Source: a virus. From it: 55,756 nt of DNA. A model generated the notes under the pieces. It made no database searches. It had not been told where the DNA came from and worked only from the letters and a program-made list of their open reading frames with translations. The stretch spans positions 1-55,756 of IMG/VR virus record IMGVR_UViG_3300037882_000695; one strand, 5' to 3'. Shown in pieces: positions 5,025 through 22,598 of this stretch (position 1 is its first letter; each line of letters starts with the position of its first letter). A program made the position numbers and the translations under genes.

Positions 5025-5331
5025 CGATAAACTTTCCTGTTATCGCCACGGCCAACTTGTCGATCTTTCGATGTGTCCCGCGAACCTCATGCCCTAAGCT
5101 GTCCACCGACTTCGACACGCCATTCAGCCCATCGACTAATCCGTGAGTGACCTCCCGATGCAACTGCCGATCCTTTTCGGATTCCGCTGCTGACGTGTCC
5201 ATCAGTTTCGTGATGTGAGCACTGAAAATCCTCGACAGAAGCCAGAACGTCAGGAAAATCCCGCCCATGCCAAACGCAATAAGCTGCAATTGAGTGTCTG
5301 GCAAATCCGACGCCTTCGGGAGCACTTCCAT
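4996..5331 (-). CDS. membrane protein with coiled coil, holin-like region
   Basis: A 111-aa protein. The ATG at 5331 overlaps the TAA of the upstream gene (TAATG), which decides the start over an in-frame codon 19 residues upstream. One membrane span lies near the N-terminus (LIAFGMGGIFLTFWLLSRIF), followed by an amphipathic helical region (DGLNGVSKSVDSLGHEVRGTHRKIDKL). This resembles haemolysin XhlA-type proteins that assist holins. Translationally coupled to the preceding two-span protein. Confidence 0.6.
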   Translation of the reverse strand: MEVLPKASDLPDTQLQLIAFGMGGIFLTFWLLSRIFSAHITKLMDTSAAESEKDRQLHREVTHGLVDGLNGVSKSVDSLGHEVRGTHRKIDKLAVAITGKFIDDDSHPIPT

Positions 5332-5537
5332 TATTTGGGCTCTCCACCAGGCGGATTCATCTTGATGAGCACAGTGAACGTCGTCCACAGACCGGCGAAC
5401 GTGTATACCGCCTTTTTGACATCAACCTGATTAAACTCGTTCTGGTACGATGTCGCATCCACGAAAAACAGCGCGATAGCAAACACCGCCGCGAGCACGA
5501 CAGCGAGCAGATATTTCAGCAGGTCCATTTTGTCCAT
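5331..5537 (-). CDS. putative holin (two membrane spans)
   Basis: A 68-aa protein starting MDKMDLLKYLL; the ATG at 5537 follows a GGAG 8 bases upstream, so it is preferred over in-frame starts further up. Two hydrophobic segments (about residues 6-26, and a weaker one at 43-58) are separated by a short polar loop, with a polar Pro/Gly C-terminus. Size, topology and neighbouring membrane genes fit a holin that permeabilises the inner membrane at lysis. Its stop overlaps the next start (TAATG). Confidence 0.55.
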   Translation of the reverse strand: MDKMDLLKYLLAVVLAAVFAIALFFVDATSYQNEFNQVDVKKAVYTFAGLWTTFTVLIKMNPPGGEPK

Positions 5538-5550
5538 CAATCGCACTCCG

Positions 5551-5877
5551 TTACCGTGTGTAAACTGGTGGTGACACGTCCGGTGAATTATCATCAAACA
5601 ACTCAGTAATCACCAGTTCGATAGAATCCCGAACACTGACGTTTGATTCCCTTGCCCTATGCAAAATCAATTGCACTTCCGCCGAACGAATCCGCTCCAA
5701 CAGTGCTCTTTTCAACCCATCGAACTCAACTGCGCTTCCGATATCATTTGATCGAAACGAACGACACAACTCAGTCCACTTGCGATATGATGCCATTCGT
5801 TTCTCCGCACCGTAAAACAATCTCTCCGCGATTGTCCGCAGTCGTCGCCAGATGTCAACATTGGTTCGGCTGGTCAC
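5551..5877 (-). CDS. hypothetical protein
   Basis: A 108-aa, mostly helical, Arg-rich protein (KWTELCRSFRSNDIGSAVEF, ALLERIRSAEVQLILHRARES) with an acidic C-terminal part. The start codon is GTG. No domain is recognised. It sits just upstream of the putative holin with 13 bp between them. It is less certain than its neighbours because the region immediately upstream (5920-6153) is itself unusual. Confidence 0.5.
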   Translation of the reverse strand: MTSRTNVDIWRRLRTIAERLFYGAEKRMASYRKWTELCRSFRSNDIGSAVEFDGLKRALLERIRSAEVQLILHRARESNVSVRDSIELVITELFDDNSPDVSPPVYTR

Positions 5878-6153: not shown

Positions 6154-6849
6154 TCACTCCACCTTTGCCTGAGCCCCAACGAATTCGCCATCGGCCATCT
6201 TGACCACGAAAAACGGGTAAACGAATCGCCCGCTGTTGTTCAGTCGTACCAGTTCGTTCCATGTCGCCACGTCAATTTCACTGTCGGCAGGTCGCGTCTT
6301 GTCCATGTAGCAATAGACGTATTTCAGTTCGGCAGTTCCATCGCCGTGCTTTTGCTTGAACAGGCGGCACGGGTAGCACGTTGTTGAACCGACGACATAC
6401 ACCGTCTTTTGAGAAACCGGCGCTCGAACGACCTGCTGGAGTGAGGCAGCAGGAGAGGTTGTCGAACGAGCGCCGGGCGCGGCGGTTCTGTTGATTACGT
6501 ACTGTTCGCGGCCACACTTCGGGCAGTTGTGACTCACTGGGCCTTTTTGCGGATCGTGCCACCATTCGTGGTTGCAGCGTGGATTTGAGCACAGGTGCGA
6601 ATGCAGGTCTGATTGTTCTGGCTTGGATGATGGCTTCGATGGTGCTGATGGTTCAGAGATCAACGGGGCGCGAGGAATCGGGGCGCGGGGTCGGTCGTCT
6701 GCAAAGCACTGGGCGACACGAATACCGAGTAATACCCCTATCACCGCCAGTGACCACCAAATAGCTTTTGCGAAACGATGGTATCGCTCAAGCGCGGCGA
6801 GTCCGCGACGATCTTCGTCGAGCAATCTATCTCGCAACAGGTCGCTCAT
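6154..6849 (-). CDS. membrane-anchored zinc-ribbon / thioredoxin-like protein
   Basis: A 231-aa protein. The ATG at 6849 overlaps the stop of the upstream protease gene (ATGA). After a charged N-terminus, one membrane span lies at about residues 28-48 (AIWWSLAVIGVLLGIRVAQCF), then a Pro/Ser-rich linker. A zinc ribbon follows: CSNPRCNHEWW and CPKC. The C-terminal ~85 residues look like a glutaredoxin/thioredoxin fold, with strand VYVVGSTT, the redox motif CYPC, and FVYPFFVVKMADG as the cis-Pro region. Residues after the span would face one side of the membrane. Adjacent to a Cys protease and holin-like genes, it may break disulfides during lysis or mature the protease. The frame continues past its TGA (see 5920-6153). 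Confidence 0.65.
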   Translation of the reverse strand: MSDLLRDRLLDEDRRGLAALERYHRFAKAIWWSLAVIGVLLGIRVAQCFADDRPRAPIPRAPLISEPSAPSKPSSKPEQSDLHSHLCSNPRCNHEWWHDPQKGPVSHNCPKCGREQYVINRTAAPGARSTTSPAASLQQVVRAPVSQKTVYVVGSTTCYPCRLFKQKHGDGTAELKYVYCYMDKTRPADSEIDVATWNELVRLNNSGRFVYPFFVVKMADGEFVGAQAKVE

Positions 6850-8771
6850 TTCACCGTTCCTGAGCCATGTTGACCGACAGGAATTGCGTACACCTGATGA
6901 TATTTCATGGTTTCGCGGACATGCTCGTATCCGATCCATCCACAGCCGCGAACTCCGTGCTGTAGCCCCCAGTTCATAATCACCTTGCCCTGAATATCTC
7001 CCCTGCTGTTCAACCGCGAGTCGGACTGAGCGACCGCATGATTTCCCGGCCCCTGGTCAATTCCGAGAACGTCACCGTTCAACCGCTCAAAGTTCCGGCC
7101 GACCTGAACCGCGATGACGGTAAAAAACGGACCAGCCCACGCGGTAATCAGTTCATCCCACGAATGTATCAACAGCGGAGCGTCGACTTTGAACAACGCG
7201 GCTTCAGTGTCAAATCGTCGCGTGTCGTTGCGATAGATCAGATTCCACGGACAGGACACCAGTGACGGCAAACCATATTCCTGACCGACCTGAAACGCCC
7301 GAAACAGTTCGCTGCCCTGGTCTCTTCCGTTGTTCATCAAACTGTAGGCATATGACCCCGACCGCTTCGTGAGCTTCGTGTTCCCTCCAGCATAGGCAGC
7401 GCGCCACGCTGCATTGGCGAGAGCATAGCCATTACAATTATGAACTCCAACTCCCTCCACGACGTAGCTGTGGTCTTCTTCTACCTCAATATTGTAAACG
7501 ACGCCATTGAATGGTTCTGCCTCGATCTTGTCGACACGACGCCACATGACGGACTCGGTTTTCCTTGCTCGTGACTTCGCATCTGGATTTGACGGCCAAG
7601 CAACGATATACCGCAAATGTCGATGCTTTATTTTGTGCTTCGGATTAATCTTTACCTGAAGAGTCTCCACTGTTGGATTTTTTCCGATGGCATTCGCGAT
7701 GTCGTACATGTTCATTGCCAGTGCATGCGATACCGTCACGCCGCCACATCGCTCCGCCTCCCCTAATCCGTCTCCGGCCTGCCATCCGTTCAGCATCGCC
7801 GTCAAGAAATCGCGTGGTCCGCTTGAGATATCTGGATGCAGGCTTTTTATCGCCGACCCAGACCCGAATAGATTTTCGAATAGATGGCACCATCCACTGC
7901 CATAGACCTTCACGTCGCACGTTCGTTTTTTGCCACGATTCACGCAGACATTTGTCTTTACGCCAAACTCATTCATCCACAAATCACACAACTCTGCCAC
8001 CAGCGTGTCGACTTCATTTTCATTGAATGTGAATGTTATTTTTCCACAGGAAATCGAGCCCTCCGCAAGATACAGCCCGCAAATCCTGCCAAAAGATTCG
8101 TTCAATACAATAAGTTCTGGAACCGGAGTTCGACGAACTTCTGTCTGAGGCTTTCCGGGAAGACCACCGACTTTGCTACTTGCAACGTGAGCGTATGTGC
8201 GGCGCTGGATCGTGTGAGTCGTTTGTTCGAGATACTCCGCTGGAACGATTGATTCAACCAGTTCCGGCATATATCGAGGAATCGCTACCCAATCGTCATT
8301 TCGTAGGTCGATTGCCGCAACATATCCGCGATTTTCCGTGAGAAAAGGATGCTCTGCCGTGCATCGAATATGCCGATTGCCCCAGATGCAAACGCGAATC
8401 ACGTCTCCGCGATGGTCTTTTACCATCGTCCTCATGACTCGTTTTGTGCGACCCTCTGCCGTCAAAACACTATCAAGCAACCTGACATGCTCAATTGGTT
8501 TTTGCGACCCATCAGCCATACGGACGAGAGTTCCAGGTGGGAAGCACGAACCGTGTGACCCCTGATTCTCTTCCCCCTCGCCCGGAAACAGCGTCTCAGC
8601 CTTCCATGTTCGAGCAGCAATCGCGGTTCGGCATTGGTCCAACGTCCACACCGGAAACGCTGACGCAAACGCGACGAGTCCGCTATCGGCTGGCGGTTTC
8701 GACGGCATTGACCCGCAGCGACGGATGACGCCGAATTGGTCCTCGATTTCGTCGGGTTGGTAGTCGCTCAT
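6846..8771 (-). CDS. papain-like (C1A) cysteine protease interrupted by an intein
   Basis: The 641-aa precursor starts at ATG 8771, which overlaps the preceding stop (TGATG). Residues 1-75 and 446-641 form the host protein (271 aa after splicing); residues 76-445 are an intein. The joined exteins read NQGSHGS-CNGYALANA, matching the papain active-site block with Q70 (oxyanion) six residues before the nucleophile C446, exactly as Q19-C25 in papain. The active-site His is H578 (GNHAV) and the Asn is N600 (IMNWG). The intein sits immediately before the catalytic Cys, so unspliced precursor cannot be an active protease. No signal peptide is seen. No muramidase or amidase was recognised elsewhere, and the gene neighbours holin-like proteins, so it may act in lysis; a virion maturation role is the alternative. 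Confidence 0.85.
   Translation of the reverse strand: MSDYQPDEIEDQFGVIRRCGSMPSKPPADSGLVAFASAFPVWTLDQCRTAIAARTWKAETLFPGEGEENQGSHGSCFPPGTLVRMADGSQKPIEHVRLLDSVLTAEGRTKRVMRTMVKDHRGDVIRVCIWGNRHIRCTAEHPFLTENRGYVAAIDLRNDDWVAIPRYMPELVESIVPAEYLEQTTHTIQRRTYAHVASSKVGGLPGKPQTEVRRTPVPELIVLNESFGRICGLYLAEGSISCGKITFTFNENEVDTLVAELCDLWMNEFGVKTNVCVNRGKKRTCDVKVYGSGWCHLFENLFGSGSAIKSLHPDISSGPRDFLTAMLNGWQAGDGLGEAERCGGVTVSHALAMNMYDIANAIGKNPTVETLQVKINPKHKIKHRHLRYIVAWPSNPDAKSRARKTESVMWRRVDKIEAEPFNGVVYNIEVEEDHSYVVEGVGVHNCNGYALANAAWRAAYAGGNTKLTKRSGSYAYSLMNNGRDQGSELFRAFQVGQEYGLPSLVSCPWNLIYRNDTRRFDTEAALFKVDAPLLIHSWDELITAWAGPFFTVIAVQVGRNFERLNGDVLGIDQGPGNHAVAQSDSRLNSRGDIQGKVIMNWGLQHGVRGCGWIGYEHVRETMKYHQVYAIPVGQHGSGTVK
7437..8546 (-). 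mobile_element. intein with LAGLIDADG homing endonuclease
   Basis: Encodes residues 76-445 of the protease precursor (370 aa). Block A: CFPPGTLVRMADGSQKPI, beginning with the nucleophile Cys. Block B: TAEHPF with the conserved Thr and His. Two LAGLIDADG helices: GLYLAEGS (about 232-239) and LNGWQAGDG (about 327-335), both keeping an acidic residue, so the homing endonuclease is probably active. Blocks F/G: NGVVYNIEVEEDHSYVVEG and VGVHN, followed by Cys as the +1 residue. All residues needed for class 1 splicing are present. Confidence 0.93.
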
Positions 8772-9190
8772 CAAAGTACCTCGGCGAGATAGAACACGAT
8801 TCCTTGGCAGTACGGTTCACCATCCTCAAGAATCGTAAACGTCGAATGAGGAATGCCAGTTTCATATTCCCACGTCGCTACAGAGTCCTTTCGATCCCAG
8901 TAAATGCGAATCAACTGAGCTTTGTTGAGCAGGTCCTTGAACCCGCAATACTCGCACTCACAATCGCGGTGATTTGGAAGTAACTTACCATTGACGATTG
9001 GAATCGTCCCGCCGCCGTAGCAGCCCCATTCGTCTTCAATTGCCCCTCGAAACTCGCAGAGGTCATCTGAGGCACCATACACGACTACTAGCCCATTTTC
9101 TTTTGCTAGCTTTTCTTCGGCGCGGTCCAGTTCATCACCAATTTCGCGACCGTCAAGAAGCTTCGCGAACTGTTCTCGTGTCATCGCCAT
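8771..9190 (-). CDS. conserved phage protein of unknown function
   Basis: A 139-aa protein beginning MAMTREQFAKLLDGREIGDE. It has a CECEYCGF cysteine cluster in the middle (about residues 75-83) and a conserved-looking C-terminal half (WEYETGIPHSTFTILEDGEPYCQGIVF). Proteins of this design are common in phage genomes and have no assigned role that I know of. The Cys cluster could bind a metal. Its stop overlaps the start of the protease gene, so the two are co-translated. Confidence 0.7.
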   Translation of the reverse strand: MAMTREQFAKLLDGREIGDELDRAEEKLAKENGLVVVYGASDDLCEFRGAIEDEWGCYGGGTIPIVNGKLLPNHRDCECEYCGFKDLLNKAQLIRIYWDRKDSVATWEYETGIPHSTFTILEDGEPYCQGIVFYLAEVL

Positions 9191-9958
9191 CTATCTTCCC
9201 CCCGCTTTCGCAATCACCGCATCAACCGCCTGAACACTCTTCGGCAACGCCACCACGTCCAGCAAGAAACGACCCTTGTCAACCAGCACGATTGCAGGAG
9301 GTGGAATGCCTTTCGCCCGCATCTGTTCGAGCGTCCACTTGCCGAGTTCGTCCGCTGTCGTTGGCAGATACGTGTACGTGGTTACGCCTGATGCGCGTAG
9401 TTTTGTCCAGTAGCCAAGATCGGCGATGACTGACGATTGCTCGGGAGTGACTGTTGACGGTTCCCACACGAGATAGACGCCACCGACCTTGTGCGTCGAG
9501 ATCGGTTTATCGTCAGGCTCAACAGGATCGACAGGCTTCGGTGGTGGACGCGGCCCATTCCCGCACTGCACGATGATCGTCGTCAGATCGCTACCGGTTT
9601 CCGTAACGTGAGCCACAAACAATTTCGCACCGTTCCGTAGCGTGCAAATTAACTGTGTCGGCAATTCCGTCACGTCATAGTCATCGTCCGGCGCGGATGT
9701 CTTGAACGACCATTTACCGGCAGCACTGGCGACGATGCGAAACTGCCGACCGTCCTTCACCTCGGTCAGTGCCACGCCCCTGGAATCGAGCAATTGCAGC
9801 CCGTCACCTGGTGGAATCGGCGTGAGTTTGTCCGGTTCGTCTTTCGGTAGCAGTCGTTCGAGTTTCGACAGCCGCGCGCCGATGTCCGTGACGGCTTTCG
9901 TTAGCGAGTCAACGTCGAGTTGCGCGAACAGGATTAGGATCAATGCGAATGGGTTCAC
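9191..9958 (-). CDS. exported or membrane-anchored protein, thioredoxin-like C-terminus suspected
   Basis: A 255-aa protein. The GTG at 9958 is chosen because AAGGA lies 8 bases upstream and the hydrophobic NPFALILILFA segment then forms a proper N-terminal signal or anchor. A coiled coil follows (LTKAVTDIGARLSKLERLL), then a beta domain, a Pro-rich linker (RPPPKPVDPVEP), and a C-terminal ~95-residue alpha/beta domain whose order of strands and helices recalls thioredoxin folds but lacks the CxxC. It sits upstream of the protease cluster. The function is unknown; a periplasmic or envelope role is inferred. Confidence 0.55.
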   Translation of the reverse strand: MNPFALILILFAQLDVDSLTKAVTDIGARLSKLERLLPKDEPDKLTPIPPGDGLQLLDSRGVALTEVKDGRQFRIVASAAGKWSFKTSAPDDDYDVTELPTQLICTLRNGAKLFVAHVTETGSDLTTIIVQCGNGPRPPPKPVDPVEPDDKPISTHKVGGVYLVWEPSTVTPEQSSVIADLGYWTKLRASGVTTYTYLPTTADELGKWTLEQMRAKGIPPPAIVLVDKGRFLLDVVALPKSVQAVDAVIAKAGGR

Positions 9959-9960
9959 GG

Positions 9961-10242
9961 TTATTCCTTGTGGCAGCATGAATAGCAAACCGAACCGATG
10001 TGCATCGTGGGCTTTCCGCACCGTTCGCACAGCACACACATGTCAGAACCAGATTTTTTCTTTGAATCCGCTTGCCGTGGCTTGCCCCCGAAATGCACAC
10101 CGATCGCGAATTTGTTCGTCAGAAACAGCATCCACATCGTGTACCAGTTGTCGGCGTCAATGTAAAAACGAACCATTCCAAGACCGAACCATGTCCAGCC
10201 AATCCAGACTGAACGATCTACACGCATCACGGAACTACTCAC
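9961..10242 (-). CDS. small membrane-associated protein with C-terminal zinc ribbon
   Basis: A 93-aa protein. GTG at 10242 has GGAGG 9 bases upstream, which makes it a better start than the ATG codons around it. A Trp/Phe-rich hydrophobic part (WIGWTWFGLGMVRF, WYTMWMLFL) is followed by a basic linker and CVLCERCGKP with YSCC, a likely zinc ribbon. No family is recognised. It precedes the exported protein at 9191 with almost no gap, so the two are coupled. Confidence 0.55.
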   Translation of the reverse strand: MSSSVMRVDRSVWIGWTWFGLGMVRFYIDADNWYTMWMLFLTNKFAIGVHFGGKPRQADSKKKSGSDMCVLCERCGKPTMHIGSVCYSCCHKE

Positions 10243-21248: not shown

Positions 21249-22598
21249 CTAAAACAATTCTCCGCGAGCGTCCGCCTCTCGTTTATCTGCGTTCCACTCT
21301 GGTCGTTGTCGCCGTTTTTCCATCAACTTCAGGTATCGCTCATACGATCCTGTTTTGTGCTGAGAGAACCCGATTGTCTTGCACCAATAATCGTTACGCA
21401 AAATGCACTTGCACATACGCCGCCACGATGGCGCTAGCTCTTTCGATTCCAGTGCTGGATCAACAAAATCCGGGATGCCTTTTTCGTACCCGCGATCCAT
21501 CCACCATTTGCGGTAAACGTCGAACTTCGCCTGGAAATGCTCCGACATCTTTTTCGGGAGAGTCTTGAGCAGCATTTCTGTGAATGATCTCCATGTATGA
21601 TTCGGCGGAAGCGATATGCTTTGGTATCCGGTCATGTTTCCGGTTTCTTGCACATACATTGCGCCGGAATTCGCACCTTGGACGCGAGCCACAACACGCC
21701 CCCACGTCATCGGCTCAATGAGCTGATACAGCCACAGGCCGCGACGCTGATCGTCTCCGTACGGCTCGCAGATTCGCATCTGGTGAATCGTAAGACCTGC
21801 CTTGTGCATCATGTCGTAAAGCTTGTTGTACGGCAGGTGCGGATTCTTGGCCTGATACACCCAATCGTCGGACGTGGCCCAATCGTAAATTGGATAAAAG
21901 TTGTAAACCTCATCGACGATCAGTGTCGTGTATTGCCAGTTGTTCAATCGCGTCTTGTTTTTGTAGGCAATTGTGCGGAAACGATTTAGGCTTTCGTCAC
22001 ATCGAATCCCTACGAAACACGCGCATCGCTTGCCCTGTGCGTACCATGCTCCGAATTCTGGTACGAAATCCTCGAACTCCATTCCATCGACGTACCAATC
22101 CCAAGTTTTCGTGTCGGTAATTGCCCACGATGGAGGCTGGCGAACCCACATTTTCTTTTTGTCGGGAGACCAGCATTCCCACTTTGGCTCAAACACAGAG
22201 ACTGCGTTTCTCAGTCCGATTGGCAGGCAAACCCAATACCATTCAGTGATGTCCAGGTACATTTCACGCATTCGCGTTGCGTGCTCTATAGTGAGCGTGT
22301 ATTGAGCCTCCAAATCGATCAACAACACGCCAAATTTGCGGCCACGCTTGCGAGCCTCCTGCGCCACAAGGTGTAGCATGACGGTTGAGTCTTTCCCCGC
22401 TGAAAAGCTCAGGTAAACCCGCTCGCACGAATCAAATGCGTTCGCAATTCTCTGTCTTGCCGCGTCTAAAACAGAAATCCCGATGGGACGCTTTTTGGCA
22501 GATAGTTCCCGCCCCTCAAATTCAAAATTGCCTTCCGCCGTGCGATGTCGGCTATCTTGTTCGCTTCCGCCTGCTGCAATATCGTTAGTTGATTCCAT
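21249..22598 (-). CDS. PAPS-reductase-like (IbrA/DUF3440) ATP-pyrophosphatase
   Basis: A 449-aa protein. The PP-loop SFSAGKDS lies at about residues 64-71, with the conserved strand LLIDLEAQY behind it and a long C-terminal region (GIRCDESLNR, PIYDWATSDDWVY, HLPYNKLYDMMHKAGL). This is the pattern of IbrA/YbdN-type relatives of phosphoadenosine phosphosulfate reductase and of DndC. The only ATG lies inside the upstream gene, giving a 133-bp overlap. With the ParB-like gene at 22.9-23.6 kb it forms an IbrA/IbrB-like pair. Suspected role: adding or removing sulfur on a nucleic acid or another ATP-dependent modification. Confidence 0.75.
   Translation of the reverse strand: MESTNDIAAGGSEQDSRHRTAEGNFEFEGRELSAKKRPIGISVLDAARQRIANAFDSCERVYLSFSAGKDSTVMLHLVAQEARKRGRKFGVLLIDLEAQYTLTIEHATRMREMYLDITEWYWVCLPIGLRNAVSVFEPKWECWSPDKKKMWVRQPPSWAITDTKTWDWYVDGMEFEDFVPEFGAWYAQGKRCACFVGIRCDESLNRFRTIAYKNKTRLNNWQYTTLIVDEVYNFYPIYDWATSDDWVYQAKNPHLPYNKLYDMMHKAGLTIHQMRICEPYGDDQRRGLWLYQLIEPMTWGRVVARVQGANSGAMYVQETGNMTGYQSISLPPNHTWRSFTEMLLKTLPKKMSEHFQAKFDVYRKWWMDRGYEKGIPDFVDPALESKELAPSWRRMCKCILRNDYWCKTIGFSQHKTGSYERYLKLMEKRRQRPEWNADKREADARGELF

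Follow-up and report, generated by a model that had tools for sequence, protein, structure and literature searches.

A class 1 intein directly before the predicted catalytic cysteine of a phage papain-like peptidase

Introduction

Why would an intein sit directly before the one cysteine that a phage peptidase should need for catalysis? This question is raised by a stretch of viral DNA of 55,756 nucleotides (IMG/VR record IMGVR_UViG_3300037882_000695; hereafter, the window). An original prediction made from the letters alone described a papain-like protease interrupted by an intein, in which the active-site cysteine doubles as the splicing acceptor and splicing serves as a built-in timer for protease activity. 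The inteins of mycobacteriophages are placed beside conserved motifs and active sites, in host proteins that comprise terminase, RecB-like nuclease, RDF, primase, N-methyltransferases, ThyX, and portal (PMC5050341). We determined what the interrupted protein is, where exactly the intein lies, and whether the arrangement is better read as a regulatory device or as the result of insertion by a mobile element.

Results

The precursor is encoded by one unbroken minus-strand frame of 641 codons (window 6849-8771), with an ATG at 8771, the last sense codon at 6849, and a stop at 6846-6848. Residues 76-445 form a 370-aa intein (8546..7437) and the joined flanks form a 271-aa extein, exactly as the original prediction had placed and measured them. 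The parts of the gene are as follows.

8547..8771, minus strand: N-extein, 75 aa, ending ...ENQGSHGS, which holds the predicted oxyanion-hole Gln70
8562-8564, minus strand: codon of extein Gln70, invariant in 73/73 aligned sequences
7437..8546, minus strand: intein, 370 aa, class 1 type with LAGLIDADG homing endonuclease (Pfam PF14890, alignment, Foldseek)
8508..8546, minus strand: intein block A, CFPPGTLVRMADG (Cys1); C1 invariant in 17 inteins
8349..8360, minus strand: intein block B, TAEH; T63 and H66 invariant
8058..8084, minus strand: LAGLIDADG motif 1, ICGLYLAEG, acid at intein Glu162 (intein alignment)
7767..7799, minus strand: LAGLIDADG motif 2, AMLNGWQAGDG, acid at intein Asp259 (intein alignment)
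7437..7502, minus strand: intein blocks F and G, VYNIEVEEDHSYVVEGVGVHN, with the block F Asp, penultimate His, and terminal Asn (alignment and NCBIfam)
6849..7436, minus strand: C-extein, 196 aa, papain-like catalytic domain (33% identity to locus L047; precursor model matches)
7434..7436, minus strand: codon of extein Cys76, the +1 residue, which is the splice acceptor and the presumed nucleophile of the protease; the only invariant Cys in 73 sequences
7038..7040, minus strand: codon of extein His208, predicted catalytic His, invariant in 73/73
6972..6974, minus strand: codon of extein Asn230 (in M-N-W-G), a candidate catalytic Asn that is shifted by one column from the Asn of the family

Several lines of evidence identify the insert. 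Pfam Intein_splicing (PF14890) matched it above the cut-off (E 1.4e-14), as did NCBIfam intein_Nterm and intein_Cterm, each at the cut-off in at least one of two scans, and Foldseek matched the precursor model to the TliVMA intein (7qsu, E 1.3e-8). When the intein was aligned with 16 related inteins from viral contigs, C1, T63, H66, D358, and N370 were invariant throughout, and both LAGLIDADG motifs (LAEG, AGDG) kept their acidic residues. The features that define class 1 (Cys1, TxxH, block F Asp, block G His-Asn, and Cys at +1) are all present. The anatomy first described, with block A, TAEH, two LAGLIDADG helices, and VHN before Cys, was thus borne out by comparison with related inteins. Judged from these residues, a complete class 1 intein here is far beyond chance; homing activity is predicted solely from the intact LAGLIDADG acids. 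The GC content of the intein (0.50, versus 0.60 and 0.55 for the exteins) is consistent with separate ancestry, but the difference is small and other window genes are equally low. A family search found no second intein in the 55.7-kb record.

Placing the extein required intermediates, as direct searches of Pfam, PHROGs, PDB, viral contigs, and genome contigs with the joined extein returned no match. The first relative was a weak tblastn match in an uncultured huge phage (L044); this intein-free protein resembles xylellain and cathepsins and aligns with the joined extein at a pairwise BLASTP E of 6e-11. Further homologue scans returned 27, 12, and 72 loci on partly overlapping contigs, which with L044, L045, and L046 make 114 loci. 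Removing duplicates and one short fragment left 72 unique proteins, and the alignment with the window extein has 73 rows. The Pfam Peptidase_C1 cut-off is passed by L053, L064, L069, L067, L070, and L047, the last of which shares 33% identity with the window extein. A profile of 19 sequences that included the window extein matched xylellain (3ois) in the PDB with an E of 7.3e-24 and cathepsin K with an E of 1.6e-16.

Structure prediction gave the same answer. The AlphaFold2 model, built on the unaltered precursor with homologues, has a mean pLDDT of 70; most of the C-extein lies at about 80 to 95, while residues 366-443, the C-terminal third of the intein, are of low confidence. Foldseek matched this model to 3ois, cathepsins, and papain-type structures in the PDB (probability 1.00), with TM scores by target of 0.42-0.64 among the listed papain-type matches. 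In a viral structure library, a phage "Peptidase C1A" matched at 35% identity over 188 columns with an rmsd of 1.9. Profile and model thus support the extein as a homologue of C1 (papain-like) peptidases, and a homologue search that could have placed it outside this family instead put it inside, with 72 unique relatives. Extein and homologues share the fold, the Q-x5-C spacing, and the order of the His with xylellain and with papain and the cathepsins, which differ in having no intein and an Asn in the standard place; xylellain is also a cellular protein.

The alignment locates the insertion to the residue. Gln70, Cys76, and His208 occur in this order, with Q-x5-C spacing, and are invariant in all 73 sequences. 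Only 7 of the 271 columns are invariant, and Cys76 alone among the window extein's five cysteines is one of them. Since the intein directly precedes this sole invariant cysteine, the splice acceptor is also the predicted protease nucleophile, which agrees with the dual role first proposed for it. None of the 72 unique aligned homologues carries an intein at this site, and the exact site is closed in each. The Q-x5-C spacing, originally taken as a mark of the joined exteins, is indeed present there but is not diagnostic, because the unspliced precursor also reads Q-G-S-H-G-S-C, with intein Cys1 in that place. The diagnostic feature is instead how the residues beyond the intein align: CNGYALANAAW... 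matches the helix that follows the catalytic Cys in all homologues.

The fourth catalytic residue is less regular. In the column of the papain Asn, the window has Met, and its Asn comes one residue later (M-N-W-G versus N-S-W-G); this column is Asn in 59 of 72 homologues and Gln, Ser, Gly, or a gap in the others. Twelve homologues have Gln, Ser, or Gly in this column and retain Gln, Cys, and His (L051, L052, L055, L056, L074, L137, L147, L155-L157, L169, and L193). With a one-residue gap or deletion in the alignment, Asn230 could be the same Asn as the family's. The Gln-Cys-His-Asn tetrad that had been predicted therefore holds for three members, while the Asn is displaced or missing.

We examined the surroundings of the gene. 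The record is a viral contig whose genes include a terminase, a lambda-type portal, a ClpP-type protease, an integrase, a Mu-like head gene, and RecE/RecT-like genes. The best terminase matches (55-63% identity) identify kin phages that are fragments of at most 33 kb; these contain no match to the peptidase gene, a result that carries no weight. The host may be a planctomycete. Upstream of the peptidase lies a second conserved gene.

9191..10039, minus strand: partner gene, with an N-terminal region and a C-terminal thioredoxin-fold domain lacking CxxC (profile E 9.3e-11; model; Foldseek)

Of 59 unique viral loci, 49 have a homologue of the partner gene upstream of the peptidase gene, mostly at most 60 bases away; the window copy is separated from the peptidase by one gene. 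The C-terminal domain, of roughly 100 aa, was modeled with a thioredoxin-type fold at a pLDDT mostly above 90, and its top Foldseek matches were thioredoxin-like with modest E-values (best 1.8e-3). No Pfam or PHROG name was obtained for the partners tested. The pair of peptidase and partner is conserved, for example in L047, L053, L049, and L055.

Other neighbors were noted. The gene between partner and peptidase (window 8771-9190, minus strand) matches phrog_25176 (E 2.4e-32), whose function is not annotated. The next gene downstream (window 6154-6939, minus strand) encodes a CYPC thioredoxin-like stretch and CSNPRCNHEWW; a downstream gene in L053 (4189-4656) has a similar thioredoxin-like stretch with CEPC, and the CSNPRCNHEWW of the window gene is reminiscent of Cys-rich secreted proteins that L055 and L056 encode downstream of their peptidases. 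An 88-aa protein with a strong transmembrane segment (window 5331-5597, minus strand) is holin-like by eye and has no family match. Further away, window 21249-22598 (minus strand) encodes a phosphoadenosine phosphosulfate reductase-like protein (phrog_2302, E 7e-82).

The role of the peptidase was considered from this context. By eye, a terminase-like gene immediately follows the peptidase-partner module of L055; in several loci, small membrane proteins are encoded close to the module. The precursor model also matches, over about 208 columns, two phage proteins whose names refer to peptidoglycan binding and N-acetylmuramidase, presumably in a papain-like part. Because of the module context, the lack of an endolysin family among the window genes scanned, and the names of these two matches, lysis or envelope digestion is our leading guess for the role of the peptidase, albeit one that is somewhat more apt to be wrong than right.

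We compared the intein with its relatives. The two nearest by identity (33 and 31% in the alignment) interrupt homologues of a phage head-maturation protease (phrog_18299; L002 6022-7146 and L010 6004-7245), and their C-exteins start CNGD. They resemble the window intein in having a likely phage protease as host and CNG at +1 to +3, but the host protease is of the head-maturation type rather than C1. A tree of 17 inteins did not place the window intein with support and contained no supported grouping with these two, so that transfer from head-protease genes, to which the shared CNG could point, is just a hint. Four other related inteins lie in C5 DNA methyltransferases (L008, L009, L013, and L033), whose C-exteins open with the C-Q-x-F-S that contains the catalytic Cys, corresponding to position 71 of Pfam DNA_methylase. 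Here too, the host contributes its catalytic Cys as the +1 residue, although the host enzyme is a methyltransferase. Given these two groups, the arrangement recurs. A search with a DNA pattern for the C-terminal junction (VHN|CNG.A) did not find a second C1 case.

Discussion

We consider it highly probable that a mobile class 1 LAGLIDADG intein has inserted between Ser75 and catalytic Cys76 of a phage C1 peptidase and that the dependence of the protease on splicing is a by-product. The anatomy, family, and insertion point come from the sequence, and splicing, homing activity, and proteolysis are predicted from them. In the proposed route, the Hint domain of the precursor would fold first and intein Cys1 would form the N-terminal thioester. 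Peptidase Cys76, as the +1 residue, would then accept the N-extein, and cyclization of the terminal Asn would release the intein. An S-to-N shift would leave ...QGSHGS-CNGYA..., with Cys76 freed as the protease nucleophile and a contiguous active site. By homology, an active protease should require splicing, since the oxyanion Gln and the Cys and His would otherwise be separated by 370 residues and a folded Hint domain. This requirement would be a consequence of where the intein landed. An intein at this site would also be retained, because no homing target is more constant than the codons of an active site and because the enzyme would not survive an imprecise loss of the intein.

Other explanations predict different fates for the protein. 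The extein might be a C1-fold protein without proteolysis, such as a pseudoenzyme or binding protein, in which splicing merely restores the fold. The Met in the window's Asn column and the substitutions in 12 of 72 homologues fit this idea; however, papain lacking its Asn retains reduced activity, and invariance of Gln, Cys, and His in 73/73 sequences is not expected without catalysis, making a noncatalytic extein unlikely. Least likely of all is that the intein is splicing-dead and the gene effectively broken in this phage, as the frame stays open across 641 codons and the residues for class 1 splicing, together with the two LAGLIDADG acids, are all kept.

The remaining alternatives are regulatory. 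Splicing that responds to redox, temperature, or host state could serve as a post-translational switch and set the moment at which the protease acts, for instance at lysis. Activity should need splicing, reduced thiols are needed for both steps, the partner gene has a thioredoxin fold, the next downstream gene has a thioredoxin-like CYPC stretch by eye, and conditional splicing has been described for other inteins (PMC6195587, PMC8557812). Against such a switch, the class 1 splicing residues are all canonical, the homologues have no intein and thus no conserved regulatory role for one, and thioredoxin-fold partners accompany intein-free peptidases as well. We regard conditional splicing as quite improbable. 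Its more specific form, in which a thiol-sensitive intein is the release switch of a papain-like lysis protease and the nucleophile stays tied up until the thioredoxin-fold neighbors change the thiol state, is very improbable: the thiol-related neighbors are suggestive at most, because their homologues accompany intein-free peptidases. With all splicing residues canonical, no intein in any examined homologue, and no sign of conditional splicing, the built-in timer of the original prediction found no support. Instead, the absence of the intein from every homologue examined points to sporadic insertion without conserved control, and the best reading is a homing intein that has settled at an active-site codon under strong conservation.

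The intein resembles those of mycobacteriophages (PMC5050341) in its blocks A, B, F, and G, embedded endonuclease, phage host gene, insertion at an active center, and sporadic occurrence, but its host is a papain-like peptidase, and no cysteine protease is among the hosts in that paper. Inteins in proteases have precedents. Besides the head-maturation protease homologues described above, an intein in ClpP of Chlamydomonas eugametos was reportedly described by Wang and Liu in 1997 (cited in PMC5050341); it likewise lies in a protease, yet one of serine type in the chloroplast. The view that few such systems are known thus needs narrowing: the open-licence PMC texts searched held no earlier intein in a C1 peptidase, but protease inteins exist and inteins at the catalytic Cys of methyltransferases recur. 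None of the four elements (intein, endonuclease, C1 peptidase, and insertion at an active site) is new by itself, and it is their combination that was not found in those texts. The locus appears to be an unusually tidy instance of a habit already known from inteins.

These findings bring into view a phage module, consisting of a papain-like peptidase and a thioredoxin-fold partner, that is present in dozens of environmental phages and has no family name in the libraries tried. In the window's copy, a single cysteine should take part in protein splicing before it serves in proteolysis, so that protease activity would be a ready read-out of splicing.
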